NCBI GenBank assembly: GCA_021292105.1
Contig: CM037868.1
Location: 30,598,821-30,662,820 of the forward strand
Origin: Anadara kagoshimensis
Taxonomy: Eukaryota > Mollusca > Bivalvia > Arcoida > Arcidae
Reading direction: 5' to 3'
DNA: 64,000 nucleotides
Shown here: positions 25,844 through 63,231 of the stretch, piece after piece
Layout: every line of letters begins with the position of its first letter
How positions within the stretch are numbered: position 1 is the first letter of the stretch
Made by a program: the position numbers and the translations under genes
The notes under the pieces: model-generated
Databases searched by the model: none
What the model was told of the DNA's origin: nothing
Seen by the model: the letters and a program-made list of their open reading frames with translations, nothing else

Positions 25844-27057
25844 TTATTTCACATCGACAACATACGTCTTGACTGTATATAGAAAACCGTATCCATTTTT
25901 AGCTTTACAATGGTATGTTCCGGAGTTGTAATGCTCAGCGAAAATAATGACCAACTCATAGACATTGCCACCTAGATACCTCTGTATAGAGTTGCCAGGG
26001 TTACCATGCTGAAATAAATCAATGACAACCAGAATCATCAAAATAAACATACTTATCCATGTCAAAATCACAATCCTAAAACAAAGTAAAAGTTATACAC
26101 GTAAGCTTCGACCAGGGAAGTGAGATCGGGTGCTCCGGATAAACACCTTCTAGCTACACCAAATGTGCGTAATAAAGAAGAAAAGAGTACCACATGTGTG
26201 TCTGATAAAAATGTACAGTTAAATCTAGTAATAGCACGAATTTTGTAATTTTTAGAAACCAAGAACATGTGATTAGTTTCAATAAAAAGTTGCATATCCG
26301 ATTTTAAAAGCTTGTCGTTTAACCTCAGCATTTAAGTAATAAGATGGTTCTATATTGAAAACTTCGGCACATTTATGTCGGAGCAAACAAAAATACATGT
26401 ATATGGTAATCACTTTTGTTTGTTTAGTAACAGAAAGAAATCGTAAAAGCGTGTCTCAATGGACCCCCCCCCCAAAAAAAGCACATGAATAGGGATGATT
26501 GATGATGTTTTGCGTCGCAAATCAAGATTTTTTTTATTTATATCAAGACAGTCAGTTATGGGATAGTGGAGGAAACCGAAATTTCCGAAGTATACTGAAA
26601 TAAAAACAAAACTTTAAATTTATACTAGTAATGGACCTTGGCAATGAGAAACTTTATGATCCATGCATAAATTATAAATATGTGCATGGAACCAACTGGT
26701 TACTAAGAGACTACAACATGTACAAGACACGTGATTATAAAACTCTTGGCTTGGAATGACTGGATTTAATGAAAATATACTACGTAATACCAAAGAATTA
26801 GTTATGTTGTACTTCTTCATGTCTCATACAGTCATACCTATATTACATTCAATAGTTTGACTTGCAAGTCTATGTTCAAATTATAATCCTAAAAACCAAA
26901 GTAAAAGTTTAAAACTGGCAATTTTAACACGGAAAATTTTGTTCTAAACTCACTGGGAACTCCCACAAGACGTTGTCCACATAGCTTGGTACTGAACACT
27001 GTAACTTAATGCTGTCTCTTAGATGTTTGTAGATAGTACTGTCTGTTGTTGTAGGCA
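25844..27057 (-). CDS. Gene A: C-terminal immunoglobulin domain (exons 27057-26954, 26008-25844)
   Basis: Exon 24 (phase 1 to 0) encodes PTTTDSTIYKHLRDSIKLQC with the B-strand cysteine, then W eleven residues later (NVLWEFP). Exon 25 encodes the rest and includes NSGTYHCKAKNGYG, the conserved Y-x-C of the F strand, ending YVVDVK and a TAA stop at 25846-25844. The C-x(n)-W and DSGxYxC-like pattern identifies an I-set or related Ig domain. An intron splits the domain in the middle. AATAAA overlaps the stop codon (gtgAAATAAAgt). Confidence 0.82.
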
Positions 27058-30000
27058 CTGAAACATATAGAAATCTTATACATTGAGTGATTTTTTTTAT
27101 GAAACCCGAAAACAAAAAATTGGAATGTGAACTTTAGTGTTACAGAAAGGACTAATTTAAACTTGACTGGCATGGAATAAAATATAGTTTTATCTTTGTA
27201 TAAAGTTTATATTAAAACATTATTACTATAATTGTTATAATTTTGCAGCACTAGACGCGACAGTCCTTTCGGAATACAACTCCACATTAGTAGTGCTCGG
27301 GCCAAAAGTGTGGAAACCCACATACCACAAAAAATACGGGTTAAAACTTTTATCACCTCCAAGTTTAATTGGAGATTTGTGATTAAGTCTTTAATTTGGC
27401 ACACACGCTTTTAATAGGCGCCACTAGTACTACTAGTATATTGCATCAAGTTTAAACTGGCCATTTCACCTTTAATTTGAATATAGTCAAACCCGTCTGT
27501 AAAGGTCACCGAAAGGCACTTATAACAGTGGCCTTTATGGGCAGGTGACCTTAATATACAGGTTCAAATAATATGACGAAAGAACAATTGGGATACAATT
27601 CTACTGACCTTTATAAGCCGGTGGCCATTATATAGAGGTGGCCTTTAAGGCAGGTTGGACTGTATTAGATTGGGCTATTAGACTGTTTGATTTAAGTAAG
27701 ACAGCATGTTTCATTACCATAAACAACCGGTACCCAGCATTACTATCACCTATCCTTATATATCAACTTTAATTTATATAACCCCTAAATTACAGAATTA
27801 ACATGCCCGATTGAATATTCAAATTAAAGGTCAAACTTGACGCACTATACTGCAGCATAAGCGGTAATATAAACACTTTCATACTTCTCCACCACAAATA
27901 ACTGGACGCTCCTAGCATCGCAATTTAAACGTTATAATATACAAAATTTAATGTAGGATATATTAGAATAAAGTGTAAATGTCTGCCAATGTTTAATGTT
28001 TTATCATGAGGACAGAATCCATTTAGGAAGAATAGTAAGGAATTCATGAACATGGCTCTAATTCACAATCACACCTTAACTGAATTTTTCAAAAAAATCC
28101 ATAAAGTTTGTTTTGAGACATAATTATTTATAACATCACCTGTTGTGGTTGTTGTGGTTGTTGTGGTTGTTGTAGTTGTTGGTGTAGTAGCTGTACTCCT
28201 TGTTGTAACTGGATCTGTTGATGTTATTATCTTACTCGTAGTAGTGACAAATGAACCTGTATTTGGTATTTTATTGTTACATAATGGTGATGTACAACAA
28301 TATTCTACAGAATGTTGTGTGATCGAGGGTAATCCATTGTACATGTGTTGTTGACATATCTAAATTATAACATAAAAAAGGTACCTGAATAGGGTGTGAT
28401 GTAGTAATATCATGTTTATAAAAGAGATCCTATATGTTGTATTTTTTATATTATCCTTATTATTATTGAGTTGAGTAATGGTGTTTAACGTCCCAGTCAA
28501 GAATATTTCACTTATATCGAGACGTCGCCAGTTAATGCATTGGTGCAGGTGCGCGGATAGAATTATACAGCAGGGTTCTTTATCGTGCCACGCCTACCGT
28601 GGCAAGGGATCTAACATTTTAAAGGAGACATATAGTGTTTTAAGTGCGTTATCTAAGCAACCCGTTTAGATTTTCGGGGCATTGTTACAACTCCTAATGA
28701 AGTCCGGACTTGACAATTTCGATGCCAAAGTCCGAACTTCAATAAGTTTTAGACTTTATTAGGAGATGCTCAGGGCATATTAATTAACCTTAACATACAA
28801 GTTAGATAATATATGGCAAAGACGTACATTGCTAGTCAAACTAGTACAAAGAGTGGACATAAATCCAGATCCACCGGCGTCCAATGAACTTTGTGATTGC
28901 TGTTTTCGTAAGTGTAATTAGTCATTGTGCTAGACAAGAGGCTGAGAAGATTGAGGGTTGTACAGGTTTCTTTTCACAAGCATACCAAGTCACATATTCT
29001 TAAGCACATTTTCAGAATCTTTTATTTTTTTCTCAGCATATAATTTTTGTACTCACAGATCTTTTCCTGCAGCCACTGTAATAAGTATGTTTGTGATGGA
29101 TGTCACTTCGCACTTGCAGAAAACATTCCTGTTTAAAAATAAATGTCAACAAATTAGTGAAAAGGTCAGTCTATTTACAGACAGATATAGGACACATACA
29201 GCCTGTGGTTGCCACCAGCTTCTTTCACTGTTCAGAAAACAACATTTCAGACTTTTGAAACCTTATTTTATCCTCTATATTACTGCTTAAAATACAGCGG
29301 TAGAGGCGTCAAAGTGTTTGTTAATCTTTTCTTCAACAAATATAAATACGGAAGTCAAAGGAATCCACTTGGTGTAATCATAAAAAACAGACATATCAGT
29401 CCATGTTCAAATTTATGCAATAGTAGAAAAAACAGTAAATTATGCGGCAAACTAAACTACAGGTGTTCCATTTGTGTGATTGTGTGATATACAGTCGAAA
29501 CTCGTTATCTCGAACTTTTCGAGAGGAAGAAAAATACTTCGACTTATCCGAAGTTCGACAGAAGTTGGTATTTCGTTAATTCGAAACAAAGAGAAGTAAC
29601 CCAAGTTTTGTAGTACACGTGATAGATAATGAGGGATCGTAAATTTTCCAGTGTTTCATTTAAAGTTGTTTTGTTAACACATTAAGTAATTTTTTTTTTA
29701 AAAAATGAATCACTGGAAAATTCTTGATCGCACACGGTAACTTATACATGTTATAATTGTAGAAGGCAGGAACACTCACATAAAACATTCATTGTATTTA
29801 ACCGTGTTAACAGTAGAGTTATTTTATAATTTTAAAAAACCTGAACGAAATTTTTAAAAATTTATAATTTGAGTTTGTAGTTTTGAATTTTTCATTCAGA
29901 AAATTCGAAAAAAATTATAACATGACAATAGACTGCTAAAACTGTTACTACATGTTTATTGCATAACACATTATGATGTACACAAAATATTTTTTACGAA

Positions 30001-30337: not shown

Positions 30338-30372
<35 letters not shown>

Positions 30373-32330
30373 CCCTGTATCAACCTGACATATATTTTAT
30401 TGGATGATAAGCATTATAGGAGAGGCAGGTAGTTTTTGCCTGCTAACTACATTCGACAGATGTAAAATAATAATAATAACAATAATAATAATAACTATTA
30501 TTATTATTCATGTACTGTACCTCGTCGTTTTCACATAGATGCATATTGTGGCATTGATCGGGATGATCTATATTTGAACAGTCGAAACATACCGGTCCTA
30601 TATCACCTAAAAAGATAAAACACAAATGCAATGTATACTAAAACTAGAATTGTCTAGAACCGCCCCAACATTGACCTCCTGACATTTGACTTATGCACAT
30701 AAATTTGGTATGCGACACATTGTCTCATGTTGGTTTACATTTGTGCCAAGTTTTATCAAAGCCCATCGATAGACATGGGAGAAATGGAGCGGGCACGATA
30801 TTGGAACGAAAAACTAGACGGACGGACAGACAGGGTGATTCCTATATACCCCCCCCCCCCCCTAAATTTCGTTTGCGGGGTGTAATTATTATTGATGAAA
30901 CTTCTTGCCAATTTTGGAAGGCTGTTCAATGATAGAAATTTCCAAGAATTCCTAATACTAAATGAAACAAATTGTTATCAGATAGAAAAAAAGTATAACC
31001 GGAAAAAATCAAACCGAAAACGCGGTAGCTACGGTGAAAATTACTGGTGTGGAATAACGGTGTTTATGTCTTATGCAAAGTATTTCCTTAGCTAAATTAG
31101 GTAAAATACATTTTGGTATTTTGGGTATCTTTTCAACATCTTGAAAAAACTATTGGTTTCATAATTTCGGTGTAAGCACTACTAATGAGAATTTGCATTC
31201 CAAAATGGTCGTCTAGTGCTGTAAAATTAAAACTGCTGTAATATGTAATTAAGAATTTGTTTCTTAAATCGATTGAAAGCGGAGTACCAGGATAAAAATA
31301 CCGTCTATCAACAAGCGACCTGACTTGTGTTCTCTACTAGACACTACCAGAGTAGGGTTAGAAACTACGTGATCTGAGGTGATGTGATCGGTAAATAATA
31401 CTCGACCAACGAGACAGCTAACAGTGCATTCTATAACCAACGTGGTCTGAGACGGTGTGATCGGTAAGGAATACTCGGCCAACGAGACAGCTAGATCACA
31501 AAACCAATAACGTTAATGGAAAACTTGCAATAAAAATAGAAAACAAAAACCTATATTTGAACTGTTGACAAATACCAATTTGAGCTTTCAATAAGAAATG
31601 ATAGTATTGTTTTTATATGTTTTTCAATATTTGTTCCATTTATCTCACAAAATATGCAATATTTTTGAGTTATGACAAAGTTAGAGCCATATTGTATAGG
31701 AGTTAGACATTTAATATACACCCTTTATTTTCAAATTGGTACATATTATATAATTATTTATTTATAACTTTTGTAATGTTAAGTAGTTTTGTATCGTACC
31801 TACGAGAGGACATCCATGTGAATTACAAGCATCTCCATTCCCACAACATTGTTGACATCTATCTTCACCGTGATACTCCTGATGGAAGGTATTACATATC
31901 TGTAAATATATAAAAAGTCAAATGAAAACGTTATTTGAAGAGCAGCCAATTTAATGTGACACACTATTGACAGAAAACAGTGTATAATAATCAGTAACTT
32001 AACATATAGTTTGCAACAGCAAATATCAAAAACTTGTATACATATGTTTCTTACCCGTGTTTGCATACAACCAAGGGAATGGATTCTTTGTTTTGAAGAA
32101 TCGGTGTAAAACATTGCCATACATTGCTGCAAAACAGAACAGATATTCTATAAAATTACAAGTAATGACATTTGCTCTGTAAATGTGGAACGGAACAGAG
32201 CATTATCTAATTATAAGACAAGAGCGTTCAATCACTGGTTTAATTGGAGTTATGTATCTAGTCGGTAACTATGTACTCTGAAAATCATGATTATCAATTA
32301 TTAGTGTGTGTAGACCGTTCGTCGAAATTG

Positions 32331-32388
<58 letters not shown>

Positions 32389-35300
32389 TATATTGTAAAA
32401 TTTACAATATTGAAAATTAACCCATGTTAACCCCGGATCCTGCTTTACTGATGTCATTATGGTTTTTTTATTTATTTATTTATTTATTTATTTATTTTGC
32501 CTTCTTTATTTCTTTATAACGGTCTAGAAAGCCGAGTAATCTAGTCTAAAGCACAAGATTACGTCTCACAATGCTCTCACTACCAGGAATTAATCCAAAC
32601 GTTGTCAAATCTTAATGCAAAATAGTTTGCAATTAACTTGCATAAGTTCGTTATCTTTTGACAATGTTGGCATTCTGGTTATCTTAACCATCCCTTAACT
32701 AAACACCTAATTATTAAACACAAACATACCGACCCATGTCTAAATCACAACCCTAAACACCAATGAAAACAATATAAAAACTTAGTTAAACATCCGAACA
32801 TCAACCAGAGAATTTGGTCTGGGTAGCAATAAAGGGTAAGCACCCCTGAATAGCTAGTTAGCTACATCCGTCATGGGATAATTCACATTGGGTCGTTAAA
32901 CATATAAACTCTACTATACTCCAACCATTTATCTATAATATACCACTACGGTAACTCAGCTGGTAGGTAAATCGCTTTGTATGTGGAGGTCTTGGGTTCG
33001 AACCCATGCCGGATCTGACCAAAACTTGAAATCAGATAGTATCTGTTCCTGGCAAAGCACTCGGTATTTAGAAATGAAAGTCTGGAGGTCCTACGAAAAA
33101 TACCTTAAAAACCAATGTCCCGTGTCACGACAGGCTTTGTACGTTAAAGAACCCACTGTCGAGTCCACTGCAAAAGGCAAGAATGTCTGCAACTTCGCCT
33201 ATAGATGGTGACGTCTAGATATAAGTAAAAATTTTCTTGACTAGGACGTCAAATTACAATCACTCATTCGGTCAATCTATCTATAATAATTTTTATATAT
33301 TAACATACCTCGTCATTTTGACATCGTGTTACGTTTTTACAGGAATGTGGGTCGTGGATATTATAGCATTTGGCACAGAGTGGACCACTGCCTCAACATT
33401 GAAATATAAAGTATAACATAAGTAAGCTTGACATGAATTTTTGCACTTTAATTAAGAAATACCATTCTATTTGAGTGTATCATTTGGTATTATGAATGAG
33501 AGTCAGGAATAGCATATTCAATGTCATGTTAAATATGCTATTCCTGACTCTCATTCATAATACCGAATGAATACACTCAAATAGAACGTTATTTCTTATA
33601 TTTACAATCATAAAAAATATTGTAAAATGTAAAATTATTTCTACAATAATTTATTTCATTGAAGATTCTGACAAACATACAGGATTAATGGAACAGCCTT
33701 GGTCCAAATAAGGATAGTTGCGTCGGGACTAGCCATGGAGGTCATGGCCCACACTGTATTCATGAGCATCTGAATGTCAGTAGAAAAAAATTAATAGGTT
33801 CATCTAAAGAAGGTTAATTCCAATTGTAAATAAATGCAATATAAAAGGCAGCTTTACAGATTGCGACAAATGCAGTACAGATCTGTCAAAAGGCTAAAGC
33901 TTTCGAATTAGGACCGAATGGATACAGCTCATCTCGGCACCTCGTTAACTATATCTAGTTTTTCGGCAGCCCACTATCTCTCGGCAGCTCTTTGGACACT
34001 AGCTATCTATATATCGACCACTAGGTATTCTGGCTTAGCTCCGTGTTCAACTTTCGACAGGTCTGTATTGTACAAGACTAAACGATCATATATTCATGCG
34101 AGTCGCAGTTAATGGCGACAATTATTACCGTGCCAGTAATGATGATTTGAATTCGGGAAATATATAGAGGCCAATACAAAATTTAATGTACATAGTTATC
34201 AGTAAAAACCACAACAACTAAGAACAAAACAGAATACAGAGACAAGTTAATAATAGAAATAATAGAAAATGCGTTGTACTTTTAGTTAATTTCACACCAG
34301 GTAAAACACGACACAAAACAAAATAACAATAGAAACATCAAATAAGATCAGAAAAAAAACATATTTTGGAAACATTATTTAAATATTGATTATAAAAGTC
34401 CCGACTTGAGATGTGCACTGGAGTTCATTTTCATTATTGTAATTATAGCAAACAGCTGTACTATTTTTGGAGGGCCTTTAAACATTCAAGGTACTTTACG
34501 ACTAATGAAGTGGTCTTACAAATCATTTGGACCTGACAGACTGCTCCAGAAGACGTATTAAGGAAAGACGGACTTAATACGCGTACAAGGAAAATTATAG
34601 ATTGAACTAACCAAACACACATCTAAATTTCAATCTTAAAAAGCAAAGAAAATACACTTAACAGGACTGTCATATACCATTTTTTGAATTTAATCATAAA
34701 ATATATTCAAAAAATGGTATATGACAAGACAGTTAAGACGAATGCCTCCTAACTAACTGTGTAATGAAAGTTGAGAATGAAAGGAACATGAAACAACGGG
34801 ACGTCAAACATTTGCTGGGTACAGCAATAACATATTTAAAACCCATATATATATATATAGACCGAGAGTGTAATTATAAATATTTACATTTATGGTGTTT
34901 GATTGTATTAAACTCTGTTTTAGACCAAATGAAGTTATAGGACTATAATTTTACATTTGCTAATGTGACGTCACTCATTTCTTGCTGACACCTATGCTCA
35001 TGACGTCATTGATAGGCTGTTCCAGGAATTGGAATTGCATGTCGTACACGACAGTGTTTTAAATTTATTTCAGGATTCAAAAACAAAAATAAGATTTTTA
35101 AAAAATGCGAAATGTAAATATAACCATTGAACTGTCTAGAAATGGCGTTTATAGTGCTATAACTTCCATTGCCGTGCAAAGCAAACTAGTCCTAACGCGC
35201 TGGCGCGTTTTATTCGGTTTGCTTTGCACGGCAATGGAAGTTATAGCACTATAAACGCCATTTCTAGAAAGTTTAATGGTTAAAGATTCATATTTTAAAA

Positions 35301-53300: not shown

Positions 53301-56300
53301 TGTTCAAAGAAGTTGTCAGTTTACGAAGGGTTCGGGTTTAATTTTCTCCGAACCCATTGTCAATGCTTTGGTTTGATTATTTTTATACTGTTTCTTGAAT
53401 TATGTGAAAAGCATTCTATCGCATAATATGTCAAAAGATCGCGTTTATCGAGTTACATGTAATTGATGCATTCCAGAGAAAATGACATTTTACGAAGAGT
53501 AGCAAGTCAGCTTAATAAGCTTACATAACGTTCCACACAAATATAATCGGGTATTAATCACGTGACACATTAAAGGACTTTTCTCAAACAACTCATTGTT
53601 TCTAAGCCTACCTTGCTGTCCAGTAGGTGGTGACGTCATAGCTGTCTCTTGATGATGGTTATTATTGTTATGTAGTGTTGTTAATTTTTCTGTTGTGGAT
53701 TTAGTTGAAGAAGTAACGTCTTTCGTTGTCATGGATACCGAATTAACCGATACAGAAGGACCTAATGGAAAATACATAGGTTATTATTGAATTAATTTAT
53801 AAATTTTTACCCGTGCATATTATAATTTCCCTGAGTGCAGTGATTTGTTTAATCACCTGGTTATTATTATTTATTTATTATTACTTATTATTATTATTAT
53901 TATTATTAGTAGTAGTAGTAGTAGTAGTAGTATTACAAGTGATATGGTTAATCATCATCATCATAATTGTTATTTTAATAATTTTATTGCAAGCGATCAA
54001 AATAACAAATTTTAGGTTAAAGATCTACCTTACAATCTGACAACTACCACCTCAACCTCATTAGACTTTACCTACTATCTCCAGTAATTAATGAAGGCGT
54101 TTTGACGCGCGAAGTTAGAAGCTTAATATTCTTTTGGTCAATTCCACTTATATCGAGGCGTCCAGTTCAAAAATTGTTAAGGAAACCAGAAACACAGTGA
54201 CGCGAGAAAACCAAATACCTTCCGCGAAGTGAAAACTTTCCCGCTCTAGGATTTCTGCTCGAGTGGTACGATTCAGACTTTGACGGTTAGGGGTGGCATT
54301 ATGTCAATTTTATTTCACTTACATCGAGGCGATCAGTTAAAAGATTGTGAAGTGAACCACCAACCTTCGGCAGCGGACTGACAAAAGAATGATTCCCAAA
54401 ACGCCGAGCTATCCGCCTATAGGACTATATACGCAAGAAACTAGGTTACACCCTTATCAGGCCTCTATACCCGTCACTACTTCGAGGTCAAGTCCAAATA
54501 AATCTCTGTGTAAATTTATACGTTGCATATGAATAACATTTTTATTTTTTCATATTGACTTGTGTGGAAGCTGACTTTACTGGGTAGTTAGCTGTCTATA
54601 TAATTTAAATGTTTGTTATTCTGCACCAAAGTGTGGCGCTACTCTTTGCTAGCACAAAAACAAAAACTCAGGTGTCACAATGACTTGTTTTGTTTTGCGT
54701 CGTAATGTGTAAACGTTGTGACTATTGACGGCATGTCAGTGTGATTTCATAGCAGAATACAATGATTTAGGCAATCATACTTGTATTTAGATGAAATCAG
54801 TGATCGAAGGCATTAAAGAAAATCAAGTTGTTAGAGCCACCCGTCCTAAAGAGAGCATGCTTGACACCCGTGGAGCATTTTACAGACAAAATATTGTTGC
54901 TAAGAGTTCATGATAAAGACCAGTTTGAAGTTTTGTCAAGAGCAAAGCTTTTAGACTTAGTGCTGTGGACTTTAATTTACTGATATAACCTTTGTTACAA
55001 GATGCTACGTCAAGTCAATGTATAATAGTCGTCATCAGAAAGGCCATTTGTATAATCAAAATCAATTTCTCTACTTTAACTATAAAATATTTTTATTCGA
55101 CAAACCGCAGGTTCATGATATTCAGTCGTGTCCAGCTAGTGACATTCATCACATATGAAACCTACCCCGACTTTTCGTCTATGGCCTTTCTTCGTGCGAC
55201 GAATGCACTTAGAAAAGATTTACTAGTACGTGTTCAACATACACGAAACACACGCGAAATGACAAGTGGCCTTAAAATGAATTGTAATATCGTTATATAT
55301 ATTGTATGTATAAAACAAATATGCTTGTATGTCTTTCTTTCTGTTCTATTTGTGGCATAAAAATAATATTGCATTTAAATTCTTACATAAAGTAAGATAA
55401 AAAAAGAAATAAAGCCGTAAAATATACATTTTATTAAAATAAAATAAGTTGAAAAATAAAATAGTTACTTTGGGATTCGAACCAACAACCCAGATAGCAG
55501 ACTAACGTTGGGCCAACGTTGGCATATTGTTGTATGGTTGGCGTTGGCTAAAGGATGTTGGGCCAACATTGGACCAACAAAGGATTTCTAACGGTTGGTT
55601 AAACAACACTGGGCCAACATTGGACCAACATAGGTATTCAAACTGTTAATTAAACAACATTGGGCCAACATTGGACCAACATAGGTATTTTAACTGTTGG
55701 TTAAACAACATTGGGCCAACATTGGACCGACATAGGTATTCTAACTGTTGGTTAGACAACATAGGGCCAACATTGGACCAACATAGGTATTCTAACTGTT
55801 GGTTAAACAACATTGAGCCAACATTAGCCCAACATAGGAATTCTAACAGTTGGTTAAACAACATTGGGCCAACGTTGGACCAACATAGGTATTCTAGCTG
55901 TTAATTAAACAACATTGGGCCAACATTGGACCAACATAGGAATTCTAACTGTTAATTAAACAACATTGGGCCAACATTGGACCAACAAAGGTATTATAAC
56001 TGTTGGTTAAACAACATTGAGCCAACATTAGACCAACATAGAAATTCTAACAGTTGGTTAAACAACATTGGGCCAACGTTTGACCAACATAGGTATTCTA
56101 ACTGTTGGTTAAACAACATTGGACCACCATTGAACCAACATAGGAATTCTAACTATTGGTGTGACAACATTGGGCCAACATTAGAACAACATAGAATTTC
56201 GAATAGTTGGTTAAACAACATTAAACAAACATTGGCCCGATATACGAGTAGTAATTGTCGGTTAAACATCATTTGGCCAACATGGGACCCGGCCAACATG

Positions 56301-57776
56301 GGACCAACAGATTCTAACTGACAGCTTGACAACATTAAAGCAACAATGGGTCAACATATGAATTGTAACATTTGGTCTGACAATATTGGGCCAACAATGG
56401 GCCAACATATGAATTATAACTGTTGGTCTGACAATATTGGGCTAACAATGGGCCAACATATGAATTATAACTGTTGGTCTGACAACATCAAGCCAACAAT
56501 GGGCCAACATATGGATTATAAATGTTGGTCTAACAATATTGGACCAACAATGGGCCAACATATGAATTATAACAGTTGGCTGACAACATCAAGCCAACAT
56601 ATGAATTATAACTGTTGGTCTGACAACATTGGGCCAACATATGGATTATAAATGTTGGTCTGACAATATTGGACCAACAATGGGCCAACATATGAATTAT
56701 AACTGTTGGTCTGACAACAATGGGCCAATGGTAAACAAACATCTTAATCCATGCCCAAACATAAAAACTGATGTTCTTACCATATATTTGCCAACAAACG
56801 AGGCATAATTTCACATTTTTTTTCCCAAGGATGCATTTAGGACCAAGTAGTACAAATGGACGCTAACGTTATGCATGGCTTGTACATGCTTTGATGGTTA
56901 TTCTAAGTCCTAACTTAAAGTAACGGTTATAATTTTTGATAAATTATTTACAGGAAATAAATAGACATTATGTCTATCAATTAAAAGATTAAATGAAAAT
57001 ATACAAAAAAAAAAAAAAAAAAAGAAATAAAAAAAAAAAATCATAAATACAGTACACTGATAAATTCAACAGATACCATTGAATCACTAAGAATTGCCTT
57101 TGATACCTTTGATAAAGACATTTTTTCATAAAATTTAATTGATATCTTTTTTTAATATTGTCAAAATTCTTTCAGATTTAAAAAAATAGGATATTTGTTA
57201 ATTATATCAATAATTAATATTTTAATTGTTAGTTAATTTGATAAAATAGATAAATATGCTTATATTTTAATAAAACAGCCTAAAGGAATGCGAAAATTAA
57301 TTAAAATCATCAAAGGGATGTAGTCTACACCTTGGTCACTCATTTTGAATATCCACCATCACAAAAGTTAGGTTTTTAGTTATATTTGTTACAACCTTAA
57401 AAAAAACAACTTCCTCTACTTTTTCTCAAACAGGTGAGCTTTTTGAATGAACAGCTGGGTTAATGGTTTTCATCCCAGTTGGGTCATGTTGAAAGTGTGG
57501 CCTAAATTGGTTAGATGACATAAGGCAAATCTTCATGAATAAGAAAGGGCTGTGCTCCACTCCACCCCCTTCTTATTCATAAAGATTTTTCTTATTGTCA
57601 TCTAACCAATACTAAGTGGACAGGTTTTGATGTATTAACTTTACCTAAGATGGTTATAAAGTTAAAAAGAAGACCTGGACAACAGTATTACCAAGACAAA
57701 TATTAGTAGTACTCTCTTGTAAAGACTGAAGTTTAATTTAATTATGTAAGTATAATTTTATTATACTATATACATG

Positions 57777-57827
<51 letters not shown>

Positions 57828-58128: not shown

Positions 58129-58216
<88 letters not shown>

Positions 58217-61200
58217 TTGTAATGTCAAACACCAGTCTTGAACACCTGTTTTAGCACTTTCATTATACAGAAATTGTAACCCCACGGGCATGAATGTGTA
58301 CATATTAAGTTGTTTTAATTATTTGGAGGAACATTATAACATAAATTTGTGACATTTCCTTTGAAATTCTTCAATTGATTATAATTATATCTTTATTTTA
58401 AGATGCAATTGTAAAATGTGTGCATTCAAGTGGTCTATATTTCCTCAAGTTATTTAAGAATTTCGTTTTAGATTATTTAACATTTTTGATTGTGAAATGA
58501 AAAAAAAACATGATCAAGGCCATTGATATTTTCCAGTTGATTACTTAATTCAATAAATGGGAACATATTAACTTCACTGCCATAATATTCCTGATTTTAA
58601 GTATTTTAACTCAACTCAACTAAATTTAATACAGTATTAGTAAATCTTTGAGGTACATGTATAAAACAAACTATATTACCATAATGAATTATATTTTTCA
58701 AAAAGACATTGATTAATTAATTTATTTATTTAATTAATTATTTATTTATTTTTATCTATTTTGTTATGAGTCATTTAAAAATTATTTAATTTTCCATGTT
58801 TATATGCACGTCCATGTACATTTTAAATAAGCTGGTCATAAGCCCTGCGGTGTAGCAAAATACCCAAACTACAGTACAGACCTGTCGAAAGTTAAACAAT
58901 GAGCTAACGAAAAGAAGCAGAAGCTTGATTGCTGACGTGTTGATATATGGATAACCAGTTGTCGAAAAGCTGCACAGATATAGATAACTGCATTCGAGAA
59001 ACTTTGGAGATACAGGTAACGAGGAATCGAGCGGACTCGGCACGTATCTCTTAGCTTAGTGTTAAACTTTAGACAGGTCTGTACTGTACATATTGATTGC
59101 GATACTAAGATTACATATCGAATAGAAAAATACCTGCATATTTTTAGAGATGGTAGTATATATAGTTGTTTCATGTCATTTAACAGCAACTTATATACAA
59201 ATAATTTCGATCTTAATTACAGAAGCTGTTAGAAAGAAAGATTATGTGCAAGTGCGACAGAAAATGAAATTGCAAAAACTGCAAAAGTCTGGTTCAGATT
59301 TGCATCCGATAGAAATGGTGGCAGAAAAAACAGGATAAACAAAAATAAACCAGATATGTGATTTAGATAATAAAATAATAACCAAGATCAATAACTGTAG
59401 AACTAAAAAAAAGACACTTTTAAAGTTTTGTGATAATCTGTATAGTATTTACTTTGTAATGATGTTTTGTTTGGTTCTGTTTGCATATTAATAAAGTTAA
59501 ATTTATGTCAAATTTTTGTACCTTAAATTATTGTAAAGAAATATTGTTAGTATTGAACCAGCATCTGTGACATTTCATTGGAGACATTTAACATAATTAG
59601 GATATATATGTTTTCACTGTCTTTGTAATTGTCACTGGATCTTACTGGATCATCGTTACTTTTAAAATTCAAAGAAATTAAAAATGATTTTCGCAGATAA
59701 GCTGGGGCAGTATTGACAGATATTTTATCGCCAACATGTTTCAAATGTGGATTTATCGTCCTTATATGGCAAACAAAGTTGTCCTAACATACATTGCCTG
59801 TCTGCCCAATGAAGGGCCACTGTTGGCTGCCATGGTTGGTCCAATGGTGGCAACTTATATTGGGTCATCGTTGGCATTTATGATTGGTACAATGATACCA
59901 GATAAATAAGATAACGTTGGCCCAACATTGGCAGGCTATTTTGGCCCATTGTTGGCATTTATGGTTGGTACAACGATGGCCCGATGAGCAAGATTACGTT
60001 GGCCCAACATTGGCCAGTTTATGTTGGCCCATTGTTGGCATTTATGGTTGGTACAACGATGGCCCGCTGAGCAAGATTATGTTGGCCCAACAATGGCAAC
60101 TTACGTTGGCCCATTGTTGGCAGTTTTTGTTGGCCCATTGTTGGCATTTATGGTTGGTACACGATGGCCCGATGAGCAAGATTACGTTGGCCCAACATTG
60201 GTAACTAACGTTGGCCCATCGTTCCATCGTTGGCAGTTTATGTTGGCCCATTGTTGGCATTTATGGTTGGTACAACGATGGCCCGATGAGCAAGATTACG
60301 TTGGCCCAACATCGGCCAGTTTATGTTGGCCCATTGTTGGCATTTATGGTTGGTACAACGATGGCCCGATGAGCAAGATTACGTTGGCCCAACATTGGCA
60401 ACTTATGTTGGCCCATCGTTGGCAGTTTACATTGGTCCATCGTTGGCATTTATGTTGGGTACAACGTTGGCCCGATGAGCAAGATAACATTGGCTCAATG
60501 ATGGCAGCTAACGTAGGGCCAACAAACCCAACAACAACGGGCCAACGTTGGCCCAACATATGTTTGCTATCTGGGAACGTAAGACTTATTGGTACCTACA
60601 TATACCCACTACACCACGCAGGTAATGGTTGACAATAAGGTTTATAAATATCAAGTACGAGTATGGTACGGTATATTAAGAGGTTATATTGGGGTAACTC
60701 TCAAAACATTGATTTTTACAAAATTCAGTATCAGCGCATATCTCTCCATTAACCACACTTTGCATATCTAACAGTAAAATAATATAGATTTTATGTTCAA
60801 AATATCTTTAATGGAGAGGCACGCGCTCTATATGTATTTATTAAAAAACGTGTTGATTTTCACTGTCTTGTTCCATGTTTGTATAGAGTTCTACGGAGAC
60901 AAACCTAATGGATTACATGAGTTAAACATATAATGCAATATTTTACTGATATTTTTACTATATAAACTTTTACATAATGATAATAGCTTTAGGTTTTTTC
61001 ACTATCAATATGTATTCAAGATACTTTTAAATTTTGAATCCTATAGGCGGATAGCTCGGCGTTTTGGGTATCATCCTTTCTCACAATAAATTCTGATCTG
61101 AGTGATGTGATTCGTTAAGGCGGTAAGGAACGCGCCATTTTGACTGATGTATTTGGTTACCTTGGTATCCACATCCGGCTACATTACAATATGAACCCGA

Positions 61201-63231
61201 ACAGCATTCCGAACACACCGTCGTTCCTGTTGATCTTGATATCCTTGAATTACTCATAGTTGTATCACAAATCTGCAATGTGGAAATATGATGTTTGCTA
61301 TGTCTAATAGATTTTATTTGAAGAAAACAACAATAATTATTATAACTCTGCGTTAATTTCAGCGATTTTCGCAATTATGCAGTACTAATAATTACTACAT
61401 ATTTAAATACATCGTCAAATGAGATCATATTGTACATGTAGAAGGCGATTTACGCTTATTAAAACACACATTAATTTGCGCCTAAATTTGAACTTGCTTA
61501 AACAAATACATTATTAACCAAGAGCATGGAACAAAAAATAAGATATCTGCAACTGGAATACATGTACTTAGTTAGCCAACAACAGTCGTCATCAAAAGAC
61601 CTCTTCCAAAGAAACCTACGACTTATGTTTCTAATTGTATGAAATGTCGAGTGTTTAATTTGGCGAATGAACCGTGAGTCATTAGATATGGTTTTCAAGT
61701 TCGAACCCACAACCTCCGACATACAAAGCGAACACCACCGAATTAACTTCTGTGGTGGTCAGTAAGGTAGTAAAGTATATTTTGTTAACTTACCACATTT
61801 GATTTACATCCACTGCGATACATCAACACTCCAATGGTATTTTCATATGCTTCAAGAAAACATCTCTGAAACAAACATGTTCAAATCACAATATAAAAAG
61901 CAAAAGTAAAAAATTCTTAAACAGGTACATTTAGTTAAACATATGGCCTTTTACCCAGGGAGCCATTTTCACATATTTTTAAGCGATATGAAGTCTGGGA
62001 TCATCAGTTTATTATTATGGACAAGATTACTTAGAATTATTGAAAAAAATTAAGTGAACGACTAGATTATAATCTCCAATTGGACAGGGAATTTTAGCTA
62101 CCAAGATTTTTGCTAAATCTGTCAAATTCTCTAACAAACGAAAGTACAGTTGGAAAACAATACTGGCCTGCAATGACTGAATTCTATTTTTTTTATAAGA
62201 TAAGGTAGATAATTATTAATTATTTAAATTATTTAAATTATTACTTACTTCATGTGATCCACATCGGGTTAATGTAGAACAGGTGTCCGGATAGACTTCA
62301 GCGTCACAACTATAACACAGGGGACCTTCCCCGCTAACTAACATAATAAAAAAATATTACCATAATGAAATATTATCAAAAATTAAATTTTAAAAGCTAA
62401 TTAGTGCTTTTGGTCATCCAATGAGAGATCTTAAGTTTGACATGTCGACTAAACGGACGGATTGCCGATTATCGGTTAAACTACCAATGCTTTTGACCAT
62501 ATACTAGTATCATATAGGGAGGGGCGTTGGTCGAGTGGTTAACATCAGTGTTACACTTCTATGAGCAACATTTCAGAAATGCTTCTTGGAAACAGGACAA
62601 CGAGGTTCGTGACCACTTTATTGTCAAACACAAACACACCGACTAAAATCACAATCCCAAAGATATACTTTTTTTCTGATTCAGACAATTGAATCACGCA
62701 AATATTATTATTAATTAATATTATTGAACAATTCTTTCACAACAAAGCAGTCCAAAACCATCTGCAGTCAAAAGCACCTGAATTATGACATCAGAATTTT
62801 GTGACTCCACTCTGAAGTATAAATTACATTCCTGAATTGTATTATTCAATCAAAATCAAACATACTCATCCATGTCCAAATCATACTTCAGAAGCAAAGT
62901 AAAAACTTTGTAAATGACAAGTTAAATTAAAAAAACAGTGAGACCGCATGCTCCGGAAAGGTAAGCAGCTAGCTACACCCGTCACGTGAGTAATATATCC
63001 AGGGCAATCATAGGCACAGAGGCATCAACAATAATATTCAAACTGAAAAGTTATATGATCATGTATATAAATTGTTGCGTTTTTTATATTTTGTATAAGG
63101 AGCAACTCATGTTTTACCTGATGTTTTTAAAGTAAGATGCATGGACAAAACATGTATAAAATGAACTTACCAATTCCAAACAGTACAGCACAGATAGCCA
63201 AAGCCAGAATGAGATTTCTTGATGAAGCCAT
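25844..63231 (-). CDS. Gene A: secreted multi-LU (Ly6/uPAR) mucin-like protein with C-terminal Ig domain, 25 exons
   Basis: Exons, high to low: 63231-63171, 62337-62249, 61865-61794, 61272-61161, 53761-53612, 52766-52681, 51893-51822, 51154-51037, 49444-49253, 48419-48343, 45828-45757, 45206-45089, 41918-41679, 40405-40320, 39835-39764, 39248-39134, 35523-35311, 33391-33309, 32126-32055, 31899-31800, 30606-30521, 29128-29057, 28359-28140, 27057-26954, 26008-25844. All borders are AG/GT, phases join without a break, and the total is 2847 bases (948 residues plus stop). Module order is signal peptide, LU1, linker, LU2, linker, LU3, linker, LU4, linker, LU5, LU6 with Thr tail, Ig. Module borders are phase 1, so modules can be duplicated or swapped. 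No transmembrane helix or GPI-like tail is seen, so secretion is expected. LU and Ig domains usually bind proteins and Thr-rich linkers are usually O-glycosylated, but the role here is unknown. The model comes from splice-site reading, without transcript support; a missed or alternative exon is possible. Confidence 0.85.
27247..27297 (-). ncRNA. Decayed hammerhead ribozyme copy
   Basis: The same stem I arms (AGCACTA and TAGTGCT), stem II sequence related to the 52.8-kb copy, GAAA and GTC are recognisable. The core CTGATGA has become CTAATGT, altering essential bases, and stem III has extra bases. Activity is not expected. It lies in the gene A intron above the Ig exons. Confidence 0.6.
27490..27665. 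repeat. Second copy of the ctataaaggccacc family
   Basis: tctgtaaaggtcaccgaaag, ttaatatacaggttcaaata and ctactgacctttataagccg match the copy in gene B intron 2. Located in the gene A intron before the Ig exons. Confidence 0.65.
28140..30606 (-). CDS. Gene A: LU domain 6 with Thr-rich tail (exons 30606-30521, 29128-29057, 28359-28140)
   Basis: Exon a encodes GPVCFDCSNIDHPDQC and ends LCENDE. Exon b, only 24 codons, opens ECFLQVRSDIHHK and ends YYSGCRKRS at a GTGAGT donor; it was found from the phase-0 slot and the GC motif. Exon c encodes ICQQHMYNG, then EYCCTSPLCNN, and runs on without a splice into about 40 residues dominated by Thr, ending in a run of 13 Thr. This LU has the canonical 10 cysteines and lacks the extra pair of LU1-5. 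The Thr run is coded mostly by alternating ACA/ACC and may vary in length between alleles. Confidence 0.84.
28463..28625 (-). mobile_element. SINE fragment (3' domain)
   Basis: gagttgagtaatggtgttta, cgtcccagtcaagaatattt, cagcagggttctttatcgtg and ccacgcctaccgtgg match the inverse 3' half of the 12.2-kb SINE. The tRNA-like head is missing. Confidence 0.7.
28793..28923 (+). pseudogene. Short unidentified coding-like fragment
   Basis: A plus-strand frame within the gene A intron between LU6 exons b and c reads KLDNIWQRRTLLVKLVQ and VDINPDPPASNELCDCCFRK, then stops. The CDCCFRKC cluster and lack of low-complexity sequence make it look protein-derived. It has no ATG in frame and I cannot assign it; it may be a transposon remnant. 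Confidence 0.2.
29491..29590. repeat. Left end of a pogo/Tigger-like element
   Basis: cagtcgaaactcgttatctc followed by gaacttttcgagag and ttcgacttatccgaagttcg is a typical end of Tc1/pogo-related DNA transposons. No matching right end is seen nearby, so a single end or a decayed copy. Confidence 0.45.
30640..30885. repeat. Dispersed repeat (tgccaagttttatcaaa ... ggacagacagggtgattc)
   Basis: aattgtctagaaccgcccca, catttgtgccaagttttatc, atggagcgggcacgatattg and ggacagacagggtgattc recur at 36950-37190 with about 80 percent similarity. It ends in a C run. No ORF. Confidence 0.65.
31175..31220 (+). ncRNA. Decayed hammerhead ribozyme copy, plus strand
   Basis: Stem I arms AGCACTA and TAGTGCT are 46 bases end to end, exactly as in the intact copy, with GTC before the second arm. 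The core is CTAATGA instead of CTGATGA and GAAA has become CAAA, so it should be inactive. The following TGTAAAA is shared with the intact copy, suggesting a common mobile parent. Confidence 0.58.
31800..33391 (-). CDS. Gene A: LU domain 5 (exons 33391-33309, 32126-32055, 31899-31800)
   Basis: Exon a encodes GPLCAKCYNIHDPHSC and ends RCQNDE. Exon b is QCMAMFYTDSSKQR to LGCMQTR. Exon c encodes ICNTFHQEYHGEDRC followed by QQCCGNGDACN and HGCPLVG. Twelve cysteines in the same arrangement as LU1-4, but the surrounding residues are quite different (IHDP instead of EVYP, no YENT motif). LU5 and LU6 therefore form a second subclass. Exon c joins directly to LU6 exon a; I found no Thr-rich exon between them. 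Confidence 0.85.
32333..32384. repeat. (CA)n microsatellite
   Basis: About 26 uninterrupted CA units, followed at 32465-32500 by a TTTA repeat. Other CA/GT runs are at 2275-2302, 7107-7138 and 13793-13828. Confidence 0.97.
32944..33265 (+). mobile_element. tRNA-derived SINE, second copy
   Basis: The same layout as the 12.2-kb copy: ggtaactcagctggtagg, cttgggttcgaacccatg, cccgtgtcacgacagg, gatataagtaaaaattttct and actaggacgtcaaatta. It sits in the gene A intron between LU5 exons a and b. Confidence 0.78.
33453..33599. repeat. 147-bp foldback
   Basis: taagaaataccattctattt and its inverse aaatagaacgttatttctta bracket arms of about 65 bases containing gaatgagagtcaggaatagc. The loop is about 13 bases. 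In the gene A intron just above LU5 exon a, on the upstream side. Confidence 0.82.
33873..34070. mobile_element. CAGTACAGACC-family MITE copy
   Basis: Left end cagtacagatctgtc; right end ttcgacaggtctgtattg followed by TA. More diverged than the 58.9-kb copy. In the gene A intron between linker 4 and LU5. Confidence 0.65.
34657..34738. repeat. Short foldback (gtcatataccattttttgaat family)
   Basis: cttaacaggactgtcatata and its inverse tatatgacaagacagttaag, arms running through ccattttttgaat with a loop of about 20 bases. Related foldbacks occur at 1889-1940 and about 41594-41660. Confidence 0.75.
35121..35282. repeat. 162-bp near-perfect foldback
   Basis: taaccattgaactgtctaga at the left matches the inverse of tctagaaagtttaatggtta at the right. 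The arms continue through gcgtttatagtgctataact and tgccgtgcaaagcaaac, leaving a short GC-rich loop (tcctaacgcgctggcgcg). A second, more diverged copy is at 52112-52253. MITE-like, no ORF. Confidence 0.85.
35311..35523 (-). CDS. Gene A: Thr/Ser-rich linker exon 4
   Basis: Phase 1-1 exon of 213 bases (71 residues) with runs such as TNTKTSTQVMT, TSVTTDNTMPTTAATTP and TNTLSTHTQGYTG. Threonine dominates and there is no cysteine. It links LU4 to LU5. A 162-bp near-perfect foldback (35121-35282) lies 30 bases beyond its donor, inside the following intron. Confidence 0.82.
36950..37190. repeat. Second copy of the acagacagggtaattc repeat
   Basis: ttgaactgtctagtgagagc, tatttgtgccaagtttgatc, tggagcgggcacgttattgg and gcagacagacagggtaattc correspond to the 30.6-kb copy. 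In the gene A intron between LU4 and linker 4. Confidence 0.65.
37451..37661. mobile_element. CAGTACAGACC-family MITE copy
   Basis: Left end cagtacagacctgtcgaagg preceded by TA; right end cgacaggtctgtac. The interior holds gctaagttaac and cgttagctcagtgttaaac as inverse arms. Confidence 0.7.
37720..38420. repeat. Tandem array, about 150-bp units, 4-5 copies
   Basis: Units share atgacgttatagg, cattgtgtacggtcgttccc, ggtgtaaatattgttgtaaag and ccaacaatagaaact. Divergence of about 10 percent and indels are visible. It lies in the gene A intron between LU4 and linker 4 and has no coding sense. Confidence 0.85.
39134..40405 (-). CDS. Gene A: LU domain 4 (exons 40405-40320, 39835-39764, 39248-39134)
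   Basis: Exon a encodes MCYSCTSEVYPNTC and ends QCGIHE; its donor is GTTTGC, weaker than the others in the gene. Exon b is LCYLEKYENTMG to GCKSKH. Exon c starts RCDRVQHHQNHY and then has CLECCHRSYCN and GCGFSG. Twelve cysteines. A tRNA-derived SINE copy in inverse orientation (39955-40205) sits in the intron between exons a and b. Confidence 0.87.
39955..40205 (-). mobile_element. tRNA-derived SINE, inverse copy
   Basis: The inverse 3' domain (ttccagtcaagaatacctca) starts at the left, and the inverse B box (ggggttcgaacccacg) and A box lie on the right. Related to the 12.2-kb family with internal shortening. It sits between LU4 exons a and b. Confidence 0.75.
41594..41660. repeat. Short foldback beside linker 3
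   Basis: gtcatgtactacttttgaat and its inverse catgaaaagtagtatatgac bracket a short AT loop. It starts about 20 bases after the donor of the linker 3 exon (41679). Confidence 0.65.
41679..41918 (-). CDS. Gene A: Thr/Ser-rich linker exon 3
   Basis: Phase 1-1 exon of 240 bases (80 residues) starting ATQIQNSNSSIRSTTTM and ending STATQQATTG. It is Thr/Ser/His rich and cysteine-free, and is the longest of the four separate linkers. It is the paralogue of linker 2. A small foldback (about 41594-41660) lies just downstream of the donor. Expected to be an extended O-glycosylated spacer. Confidence 0.82.
44880..44990 (-). mobile_element. SINE fragment, paired with a duplicate at 50820-50930
   Basis: ctgtttcacatatatcgata-cgtcaccagctataggtaaag is a partial SINE 3' domain. 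A nearly identical fragment at 50820-50930 sits at the same place relative to LU exon c, so it predates the LU2/LU3 duplication. Confidence 0.65.
45089..48419 (-). CDS. Gene A: LU domain 3 (exons 48419-48343, 45828-45757, 45206-45089)
   Basis: Exon a encodes GPACFICHAEVYPDTC and ends QQCGTHE; it is three codons shorter at its start than the LU2 equivalent. Exon b is LCYLEKYENTLG to GCKDKY. Exon c holds CVNIKRKRN, CAECCTGSYCN and GCGYKG. Twelve cysteines. The intron between exons a and b (about 2.5 kb) is larger than in LU2 and contains a foldback (46831-46975), a poly-A run and a coding-like remnant (47359-47725). Confidence 0.88.
46831..46975. repeat. 145-bp foldback
   Basis: taagaattgaattgcacttt and its inverse at the right end, with the arms continuing through ttacgttg, ggggtgtaacaacgt and aattatgacaaatt. 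In the LU3 intron between exons a and b; absent from the LU2 counterpart, so inserted after the duplication or lost from LU2. Confidence 0.82.
47359..47725 (+). pseudogene. Unidentified coding-like remnant in gene A intron
   Basis: A 72-codon frame from 47359 reads naturally (for example MDARLGILSPVVAVWANQEH and VNKRYGRILGW), then stops. The +1 frame continues with DYYWQTYDCYYHQDPVQNQP and HWHCIPQNIYPDPRLYIVLG to a TAA near 47718. Two adjoining frames with protein-like composition suggest one ORF broken by a frameshift, perhaps a transposon or retrocopy fragment. I do not recognise the family, and chance is possible. Confidence 0.3.
49253..49444 (-). CDS. Gene A: Thr/Ser-rich linker exon 2
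   Basis: Phase 1-1 exon of 192 bases (64 residues), beginning APHIQNSNISIRSTTSM and ending SKVSTATQQGTAG at a GTAATA donor. It is rich in Thr, Ser and His and has no cysteine. It is a close copy of linker 3: both share QNSN, IRSTT, HTTP, RTHQSSTFM and MLPSKVSTATQQ. Linker 3 carries an additional block of about 16 residues. The likely role is a glycosylated stalk between LU2 and LU3. Confidence 0.82.
50820..50930 (-). mobile_element. SINE fragment, duplicate of 44880-44990
   Basis: ttcagatatattgatacttc and accagctataggtaaagtgg correspond base for base, with few changes, to the fragment next to LU3 exon c. Confidence 0.65.
51037..52766 (-). CDS. Gene A: LU domain 2 (exons 52766-52681, 51893-51822, 51154-51037)
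   Basis: Exon a encodes VCFICHAEVYPDTC and ends at QQCGMHE. Exon b opens LCYLEKYENTLG and ends SGCKDKY. Exon c contains a basic stretch (KRKRNNKLRD) and then CAECCTGSHCN and GCGYKG. There are twelve cysteines. Exon b is identical in protein to exon b of LU3, and exon c differs from its LU3 partner at only three residues, so LU2 and LU3 are recent duplicates. The flanking introns are also similar (see findings). Confidence 0.88.
52112..52253. repeat. Foldback, second copy of the 35.1-kb family
   Basis: taaccattgaactgtataga, ggcgtttatagtgttttaac and the inverse cataaacgccatttctagac match the 35.1-kb foldback with about 15 percent change. It lies between LU2 exons a and b and has no counterpart in the LU3 intron. 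Confidence 0.75.
52822..52867 (-). ncRNA. Hammerhead ribozyme, type I, intact core
   Basis: Read on the minus strand from 52867: stem I arm AGCACTA, core CTGATGA, stem II GGAAT-loop-ATTCC, core GAAA, very short stem III (C-GGCC-G), the GTC cleavage triplet, and stem I return arm TAGTGCT, which pairs perfectly with the first arm. All invariant core bases are present. The predicted cut follows GTC, between 52829 and 52828. Hammerheads with such minimal stem III occur in metazoan retrozyme and Penelope-like elements. It lies in the gene A intron between linker 1 and LU2, just above LU2 exon a (52766), in the same direction as transcription. Confidence 0.8.
53612..53761 (-). CDS. Gene A: Thr/Ser-rich linker exon 1
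   Basis: A symmetrical phase 1-1 exon of 150 bases encoding about 50 residues rich in Ser and Thr (for example SMTTKDVTSSTKSTTEKLTT) with an Asn/His run in the middle and TSPPTG near the end. It has no cysteine. Composition indicates an unstructured, probably O-glycosylated spacer between LU1 and LU2. It shares little sequence with linkers 2 and 3, so it is either older or of independent origin. Confidence 0.8.
55500..56730. repeat. 51-bp tandem array, left arm of the 5.1-kb element
   Basis: About 13 units of type 1 (accaacataggtattctaac) are followed by about 9 of type 2 (gccaacatatgaattataac). The 51-base length keeps frames open on both strands (17-residue repeats such as NCWLNNIGPTLDQHRY), which are repeat artefacts. 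Confidence 0.92.
57506..57610. repeat. 105-bp foldback
   Basis: attggttagatgacataag and its inverse tgtcatctaaccaat, with inner arms aatcttcatgaataagaa / ttcttattcataaagattt. Inside the 5.1-kb TIR element. Confidence 0.75.
58132..58214. repeat. Compound (CT)n-(CA)n microsatellite
   Basis: About 35 bases of CT followed by about 48 of CA. A pure (CT)n run also lies at 57782-57824. Confidence 0.97.
58872..59086. mobile_element. Tc1/mariner-like MITE (CAGTACAGACC family), TA flanked
   Basis: CAGTACAGACCTGTCGAAAG at the left and its inverse GACAGGTCTGTACTG at the right, flanked by TA on both sides. Inverted similarity continues about 40 bases (gttaaac...gctaacga). It is nested inside the 5.1-kb element, so it is younger than that insertion. 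Confidence 0.75.
59825..60555. repeat. Tandem array, right arm of the 5.1-kb element
   Basis: Irregular units of mixed length built from ttggcccattgttggcattt, atggttggtacaacgatgg and cccgatgagcaagattacg. It is related to the left array by the core ttggccca/tgggccaa motif in inverse orientation. Confidence 0.9.
61161..62337 (-). CDS. Gene A: LU domain 1 (exons 62337-62249, 61865-61794, 61272-61161)
   Basis: Exon a carries the CxxC start (LCYSC), then the third and fourth cysteines around VYPDTC and RCGSHE. Exon b is exactly 24 codons, opens with RCFLE and ends at the GC motif (RSGCKSNV). Exon c carries C-x2-CC-x4-CN (CSECCSGSYCN) followed by GCGY. This is the LU/three-finger pattern, with one extra cysteine before CC and one after CN, giving 12 cysteines. 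The splice phases 1-0-0-1 recur in every LU unit of this gene. The domain is separated from linker 1 by the largest intron (about 7.4 kb), which holds the 5.1-kb TIR element. Confidence 0.88.
61625..61745 (-). mobile_element. SINE head fragment
   Basis: Inverse tRNA-like head: gttcgaacccacaacctccg and acatacaaagcgaacaccac. It resembles the head of the copy at 40135-40200. It is next to LU1 exon b. Confidence 0.55.
63171..63231 (-). CDS. Gene A exon 1: signal peptide
   Basis: The first ATG is at 63231. The 20 encoded residues are MASSRNLILALAICAVLFGI, a short polar start followed by a hydrophobic core, typical of a signal peptide. The exon ends in phase 1 at a GTAAGT donor. The next exon joins as G|TT and continues S-G-E-G-P before the first LU cysteine, so cleavage is expected near the exon border. 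Transcription should start above 63.23 kb; no clear TATA box or initiator was recognised there. Confidence 0.85.

Follow-up and report, generated by a model that had tools for sequence, protein, structure and literature searches.

The question raised by this locus is whether a long series of small exons on the minus strand of the window, the whole 64-kb stretch of DNA analysed here (C12:30598821-30662820, within the 1.115-Gb assembly of 36 contigs that served as the searched genome), forms one gene for a secreted chain of LU domains, mucin-like linkers and an Ig domain, and what such a protein might do. In the portions of PMC6600238 drawn on here, the LU domain is described as occurring mostly singly or repeated with itself and as at most a 'proto-module', with GPIHBP1, SP-10 and the TGF-beta receptors named as exceptions.

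Gene Structure and Exon Organization

When the exons were joined at GT-AG sites along the minus strand from 63231 to 25844, 25 exons yielded 2847 nt and 948 aa with a single stop at the end, and in the reconstructed gene all 24 introns are GT...AG and every join is in frame. The preliminary description had claimed one in-phase chain of this size, and the independent reconstruction agreed with it in both ends, in the number of exons and in length. By its sequence the locus is a real gene, and the earlier observation is confirmed. The domain order is signal, LU1 to LU4 with a Thr/Ser-rich linker exon behind each of them, then LU5 directly joined to LU6, a Thr tail, an I-set-like Ig domain and the stop. 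Each of the six LU units is split over three exons (phases 1-0, 0-0 and 0-1), each of the four linkers is a single exon (1-1), the Ig domain is divided between one exon of phase 1-0 and another of phase 0-stop, and the Thr tail is encoded within the third exon of LU6. The uniform phase-1 module borders claimed earlier were read at all module joins.

All exons lie on the minus strand. Exon 1 (63171..63231), found by exon joining and in a signal-exon scan, carries the start codon and the signal peptide MASSRNLILALAICAVLFGI and leaves in phase 1. LU1 follows in exon 2 (62249..62337; part a, C1-C4, phase 1-0), exon 3 (61794..61865; part b, C5-C6, phase 0-0) and exon 4 (61161..61272; part c, C7 to CC....CN..GC, phase 0-1), and linker 1, Thr/Ser-rich and of phase 1-1, is exon 5 (53612..53761). 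Parts a, b and c of LU2 occupy exons 6 (52681..52766), 7 (51822..51893) and 8 (51037..51154), with linker 2 in exon 9 (49253..49444); those of LU3 occupy exons 10 (48343..48419), 11 (45757..45828) and 12 (45089..45206), with linker 3, which is 16 codons longer than linker 2, in exon 13 (41679..41918). LU4 is encoded by exon 14 (part a, 40320..40405), exon 15 (part b, 39764..39835) and exon 16 (part c, 39134..39248), the last of which ends in the donor TCAG|GTAATA and not in a stop, and linker 4 is exon 17 (35311..35523). LU5 is formed by exon 18 (part a, 33309..33391), exon 19 (part b, 32055..32126) and exon 20 (part c, 31800..31899), which meets LU6 without a linker; LU6 is formed by exon 21 (part a, 30521..30606), exon 22 (part b, 29057..29128) and exon 23 (28140..28359), where part c, in the 10-Cys form, and the Thr tail share the exon. 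The first half of the Ig domain, up to three residues past the Trp, is exon 24 (26954..27057; phase 1-0), and the second half (..GTYHC..) with the stop codon is exon 25 (25844..26008). Two splice sites of the model are poor, namely the LU4a donor GTTTGC of exon 14 and the LU5a acceptor GTTGAG of exon 18.

Under simple criteria, no second plausible signal exon was found in 39 kb of the strand, where the scan picked up exon 1 and, apart from it, an artefact from a CA repeat. In 30 random sequences, chance produced on average 1.1 signal-exon-like stretches per 39 kb (19 of the 30 contained at least one), so that the signal exon rests on its place and phase and not on rarity, and the scan for a hidden signal exon is weak evidence both ways. 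At the other end, the stop stands directly after TYVVDVK, the end of the last Ig strand, and no C-terminal hydrophobic anchor signal (GPI) was found; as judged from this predicted C-terminal end, the protein is predicted to be secreted and anchor-free, as had been proposed, and a stop right after the Ig domain is likewise seen in the paralogues.

Several other features were observed in and around the gene. Intron 4, of 7.4 kb, holds satellite repeats (55558-56728 and 59848-60521) whose translations contain 'NIGPT' and 'VGPTLA'. Tandem repeats with long open frames lie at 2677-6351 (+) and 23928-24917 (-) of the window (units ..SGTPVNYRLTRKADPVVHKEV..; ..SRATVPLNASARSEHFPEPQCLS..), and an ORF at 15039-15392 (-), which may be an exon of a gene further downstream, gave a weak PAN-domain match below the cut-off (E 0.0022). 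Two ORFs near 12.0-13.8 kb that looked lectin-like by eye were dropped, as neither had a Pfam match. Around 11-12 kb upstream of the gene, its strand carries two further ORFs that resemble exons (L046:1223-1540 (-) and L046:99-515 (-); C12 about 30.6729-30.6744 Mb) and have phase-1 borders on both sides; the first matches I-set at E 8e-17 and the second is Ig-like by eye, with no Pfam match to E 0.01. These Ig exons probably belong to a neighbouring gene; because they are in phase with LU1, the true 5' end of the gene could differ. Long ORFs resembling a retroelement polyprotein, which may be of the BEL/Pao type, occur at L046:4000-9900 (+).

Identity of the LU Domains

Scanned as a whole, the 948-aa chain matched the Pfam model UPAR_LY6 (PF00021) in five stretches at 34.4 bits, above the cut-off of 24.8, and Toxin_TOLIP at 23.8 bits, above the cut-off of 21.2. 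When three single units were scanned against UPAR_LY6, LU1 (18.3 bits) and LU6 (17.8 bits) both fell below the cut-off of 24.8 and LU5 gave no row; scanned alone, LU6 passes the related Toxin_TOLIP model. The ten canonical Cys and the Asn of CC....CN are invariant in 6/6 LU units. The profile match, the ten-Cys pattern and the flanking phase-1 introns were thus all found, and the assignment of these units as LU domains, made earlier from the letters alone, holds. Run against the PDB, the LU profile picked up 17 matches, all of them weak, at E <=1, the best being TGF-beta receptor type-1 (E 0.027), with BMP receptor, PSCA, SLURP-1 and GPIHBP1 among the others; these matches are consistent with LU identity without being proof of it. 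A family search with PF00021 returned nothing in the own genome or in any of 14 control genomes, a result that does not show absence; LU exons do match singly. In a tree of 15 LU units, none of the 12 inner branches was well supported, and no ancestral LU is claimed.

Of the 72 Cys in the mature chain, LU1-LU5 contribute 12 apiece, LU6 contributes 10 and the Ig domain 2, and the linkers have none. LU1-LU5 carry one Cys pair beyond the canonical ten, placed three residues ahead of CC and just past CN, which LU6 is without. Among 31 distinct CC...CN motifs collected by pattern search from the window and related loci, 25 have both extra Cys, 6 have neither and 0 have one only, these being related sequences, with two of the six 'neither' cases possibly not LU. 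The LU units with both extra Cys may accordingly be read as holding a sixth disulfide.

The exon layout departs from the LU archetype of two exons with an intron at the loop-2 tip, which the available portions of PMC6600238 describe as typical and not as fold-defining. Three exons per LU were found in 6/6 units and in 5/5 of the paralogue described below, and whereas the archetype is split at the loop-2 tip (PMC6600238), the LU of the window is split between C4/C5 and just before C7.

Ig Domain, Linkers and Thr Tail

Taken alone, the Ig domain of the window reached Ig_3 at E 4.3e-6 (27.6 bits vs a cut-off of 30) and I-set at 19.5 bits vs a cut-off of 23.7. For three relatives of this Ig domain the I-set match is clear (E 1.3e-12, 2.3e-12 and 5.1e-14). 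When a profile built from six Ig domains of this kind, headed by that of the window, was run against the PDB, it matched 216 distinct sequences at E 1e-6. The Ig hallmarks of two Cys, a Trp and a YxC motif are present, with C, W, Y and C invariant in 6/6 aligned relatives. The Ig assignment therefore stands, with an Ig_3 match just under the curated cut-off (E 4.3e-6) and related domains that are clear for I-set. The four linkers, of 50-80 aa, are 38-42% Ser+Thr and Cys-free, the Thr tail is 62% Ser+Thr, and linkers and tail together make up 310 of the 948 residues. No fibrinogen or lectin domain was found in the chain in a Pfam scan to E 1; for this reason, membership among the FREP or VIgL proteins, in which the Ig domain comes first, was rejected.

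Segmental Duplication and Selection

Alignment of the segment holding LU2 and linker 2 with its introns (49238..52750, minus strand) to that holding LU3 and linker 3 with its introns (41664..48412, minus strand) revealed that exons and introns both align, with intron pieces 74-92% identical. Between the coding parts of LU2 and LU3, 12 changes are synonymous and 5 nonsynonymous (dS 0.267, dN 0.024, dN/dS 0.09); between linkers 2 and 3, 8 are synonymous and 14 nonsynonymous (ratio 0.53), in addition to the in-frame difference of 16 codons. Because the introns align and dN/dS is 0.09, the array is seen to have grown by segmental duplication, with LU2/LU3 kept by selection: on the sequence comparison, LU2/LU3 arose by intragenic segmental duplication, introns included, under purifying selection. 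The growth by exon shuffling that was proposed earlier keeps the support of the phase-1 module borders; it was not a shuffling of foreign modules alone, as at least one segmental duplication, LU2-linker2/LU3-linker3, took part.

Among Ig near-copies of one subfamily in the genome, 5-8 synonymous and 0-5 nonsynonymous changes were counted (dN/dS about 0 to 0.2). Looser spots against this constraint are the linkers, with their ratio of 0.53, and a young Ig pair, L039/L041, which belongs to another Ig subfamily than the near-copies with low dN/dS and displays 2 synonymous and 8 nonsynonymous changes. The suggestion of a 'diversifying' recognition protein is not borne out by the dN/dS of LU2/LU3 and of the Ig near-copies; the constraint on LU2/LU3 argues for a working protein and, at least for LU2/LU3, against rapid diversification.

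Related Genes in the Same Genome

Searches of the own genome returned at least 32 exon matches to LU2 at E <=10, of which 12 lie within this gene, at least 24 matches to LU6, and at least 14 matches to the window Ig, of which 12 are on the same contig and 2 of these are the gene itself. The strongest support for a single LU-Ig chain comes from outside the gene, in the diverged paralogue A, at C12:9821675-9843691 (+), 20.8 Mb away, whose 18 exons encode 577 aa, all with GT-AG introns and in phase, in the order signal, five LU, a Thr tail in the last LU exon, an I-set Ig domain and the stop. It has the three-exon LU plan of the window gene and an Ig domain split three residues past the Trp, and is without linker exons between its LU units. 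Pfam on its whole chain gave Ig_3 and I-set at E about 5e-11 and a single UPAR_LY6 stretch below the cut-off (E 0.0027); of its five units, three were scanned alone, the first reaching 24.6 bits vs 24.8, the third 18.4, and the fourth Toxin_TOLIP below the cut-off only. Because the whole chain gives one sub-cut-off LU stretch, several of its LU units rest on the Cys pattern and exon plan. Its Ig domain is 26% identical to that of the window, which marks paralogue A as an old relative and not a recent copy. The one-chain architecture of the preliminary description, established for the window gene by in-phase joining, is reinforced by this paralogue. The recurrence here of exon order, phases and domain order, and the conservation of the LU2/LU3 codons, go beyond what chance would give.

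Nine further C12 Ig loci from the window-Ig search were examined (L033, L034, L035, L037 and L039-L043). LU with a Thr tail before a two-exon Ig occurs in 4/9: in L033, L037 and L040, LU part c together with the Thr tail precedes both Ig exons, the second of which contains the stop, in this order on one strand, the third LU exon being whole in L033 only, as the sequences of L037 and L040 start inside it; and in L041 with its neighbouring piece L072, the same order of LU part c, Thr tail, two-exon Ig and stop is found, with LU parts a and c seen in L072 and part b not. In 7/9 of these loci, the Ig domain is split three residues past the Trp and a stop comes after the second exon. LU was absent from the DNA examined at 5/9. 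Among these, L034, L039 and L042 showed Ig but no LU in the DNA examined, with LU matches at C12:14167026 and 10662671, some 3 kb ahead of two of the three; at L035, the second Ig exon only was seen; and L043 was dropped as a LU-Ig member, having no LU in the DNA examined and an Ig domain that splits elsewhere. A search with one C12 Ig domain gave at least 25 exon matches at E 0.001, of which 22 are on C12, and 21 of these between 10.66 and 18.34 Mb. At LU loci on other contigs, no Ig was found by pattern on C14 (L051) or C4 (L054), and the locus on C11 (L052) has a Thr exon and no Ig in the 10 kb read.

With the LU-Ig plan shared by relatives along one chromosome, these genes appear to make up a family of binding proteins of the extracellular space that is as yet undescribed. 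The architecture had been presented as unfamiliar; it remains so, in that no description was found among the open-licence papers listed, and it is not a one-off, as the plan (LU)n-Thr tail-Ig-stop recurs on the same chromosome.

Further LU and Ig sequences were observed elsewhere in the genome. On C1 (L021, L028, L053; C1:51.5036-51.511 Mb, plus strand), LU-like exons precede, in matching phase, an exon that contains two ShK stretches (ShK E 2.9e-5) and one that is Thr-rich; Pfam confirms the ShK exon, whose acceptor is of phase 1, and of the two LU units one reaches just E 0.02 for UPAR_LY6 and the other matches no family, with one exon join set by eye and one residue off. LU with ShK at C1 is taken as a lead only to a possible second LU combination. 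Three tandem Ig modules, each in one open frame (..DTGSYICSA..), mark another Ig gene by motif at C10:3402189-3405428 (-) (L036). Very similar copies of LU exons lie on C14 at 23.53 and 24.85 Mb (L012, L017) and on C4 at 37.72, 37.76, 37.90 and 37.94 Mb (L059, L022, L066, L015), and the likeness of the copies suggests that LU genes have undergone segmental duplication recently at other places in the genome. On C7, identical weak LU2 matches with an internal stop occur at 41.22 and 41.81 Mb, and L013, the one examined, is without the LU motif.

Proposed Role and Alternative Explanations

We consider it fairly probable that a single gene here encodes a multivalent binding protein secreted to the extracellular space, whatever its setting. 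The points for one LU-Ig chain are the 25 exons in phase and the location of 72/72 mature Cys within LU or Ig. Counting against the reading are the two poor splice sites, the upstream exons that could alter the 5' end, the Ig and single-LU scores below the cut-offs, the five of nine Ig loci with no LU in the DNA examined, and the purifying selection on LU2/LU3, which does not suggest fast-evolving recognition. In such a protein the linkers would be O-glycosylated and stiff and would space out the LU domains, the loops of which would serve as ligand-contacting surfaces, with six units giving avidity, and the Ig domain may dock to a partner or to a second copy of the protein. By analogy with the secreted Ig+fibrinogen or lectin proteins of molluscs, the most likely setting would be body-fluid or mucosal recognition or adhesion, which is the least certain step and is put forward tentatively, at somewhat under an even chance. 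A wider reading, which we regard as rather improbable, is that of a lineage-specific secreted family with LU arrays as the variable binding part and the single C-terminal Ig as the constant one; such a family would be a repertoire for recognition that parallels the Ig+lectin proteins, and LU within it would be truly mobile (with Ig, with mucin stalks and apparently with ShK).

Other explanations assign the same chain a different use. It might be a structural glycoprotein of the mucus- or shell-matrix type, with LU as rigid protease-resistant beads between mucin-like stalks, Ig cross-linking the chains and no specific foreign ligand; the Ser+Thr content of the linkers (38-42%) and of the tail (62%), the conserved and not diversifying LU2/LU3 and the lack of an anchor would suit this, but the linkers measure just 50-80 aa, linkers and tail account for just 310 of 948 residues, and paralogue A does without inter-LU linker exons, so that the stalks are not the constant part, whereas LU and Ig are. 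This use is considered unlikely. We hold it equally doubtful that the protein signals like other secreted three-finger proteins, as a modulator of receptors (e.g., nicotinic) or of integrins (as starfish Lystar5), with the array giving avidity: the LU loops and concave face are generally protein-binding surfaces (PMC6600238, in the portions available), but the sequence indicates no receptor target, and among the signalling LU proteins in the parts of the literature covered this architecture is absent.

Two further alternatives concern the chain itself. Neighbouring genes (e.g., LU1-LU4 and LU5-LU6-Ig) may have been joined in the model, or alternative promoters or exon skipping may give shorter proteins, given that all module borders are phase 1, by which any set of modules is joinable or skippable in frame, that intron 4 extends over 7.4 kb with satellite repeats, and that other loci have LU followed by the same two-exon Ig. 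This is quite unlikely, as paralogue A links five LU to Ig behind one signal exon and the third exon of LU4 closes in the donor TCAG|GTAATA and not in a stop; the signal-exon scan of 39 kb, with exon 1 and a CA-repeat artefact, points the same way, under simple criteria with a high chance rate. A decaying or unexpressed paralogue, for which the two weak splice sites might be cited, is extremely improbable in view of 25 exons with no frameshift or internal stop, the LU2/LU3 dN/dS of 0.09 and a linker length change that is in frame.

Comparison with Known Systems

A description of LU and Ig in one chain was not found in open-licence papers by title or abstract start, among the matches listed; databases of predicted mollusc proteins may hold unnamed entries with the plan. 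As far as the sections of PMC6600238 used here extend, uPAR, C4.4A, Haldisin and the Drosophila multi-LU proteins (2 to 44 LU) resemble the window gene in having repeated LU, the CxxC...CC....CN pattern, phase-1 flanks and a secreted or surface location; they are LU-only chains, whereas the window gene also has exons for mucin-like linkers and an Ig domain at its C-terminal end, and is without an anchor. GPIHBP1 and SP-10 are alike as rare cases of LU in a non-homologous protein setting, but consist in that account of one LU and a disordered extension, without Ig (PMC6600238). In Asterias rubens, 48 three-finger (LU) proteins with <=2 LU per chain are described, which are alike as an invertebrate LU family; the partners of LU named in the available text are GPCR-like or activin-receptor-like, and the word 'immunoglobulin' does not occur in that text (PMC11595613). 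Nor is LU combined with Ig mentioned in the portions of PMC6600238 drawn on here. The gastropod FREPs and VIgL are alike in uniting a molluscan Ig with a second extracellular domain, an analogy of working; according to the excerpts consulted, they pair Ig with fibrinogen or lectin, whereas the window gene places LU arrays before one C-terminal Ig (PMC7588048, PMC5433772).

What is new, as far as the sequence can tell, is a domain combination of known parts with same-plan relatives in the genome. LU and Ig in one chain contradicts the 'proto-module' view in the form in which the cited portions of PMC6600238 give it, and the LU array with mucin-like exons and Ig is a direct counter-example to LU as at most a 'proto-module' and opens the question to testing in other genomes. 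The LU-Ig genes are, in addition, candidates for a class of invertebrate proteins that are secreted and have a binding role.
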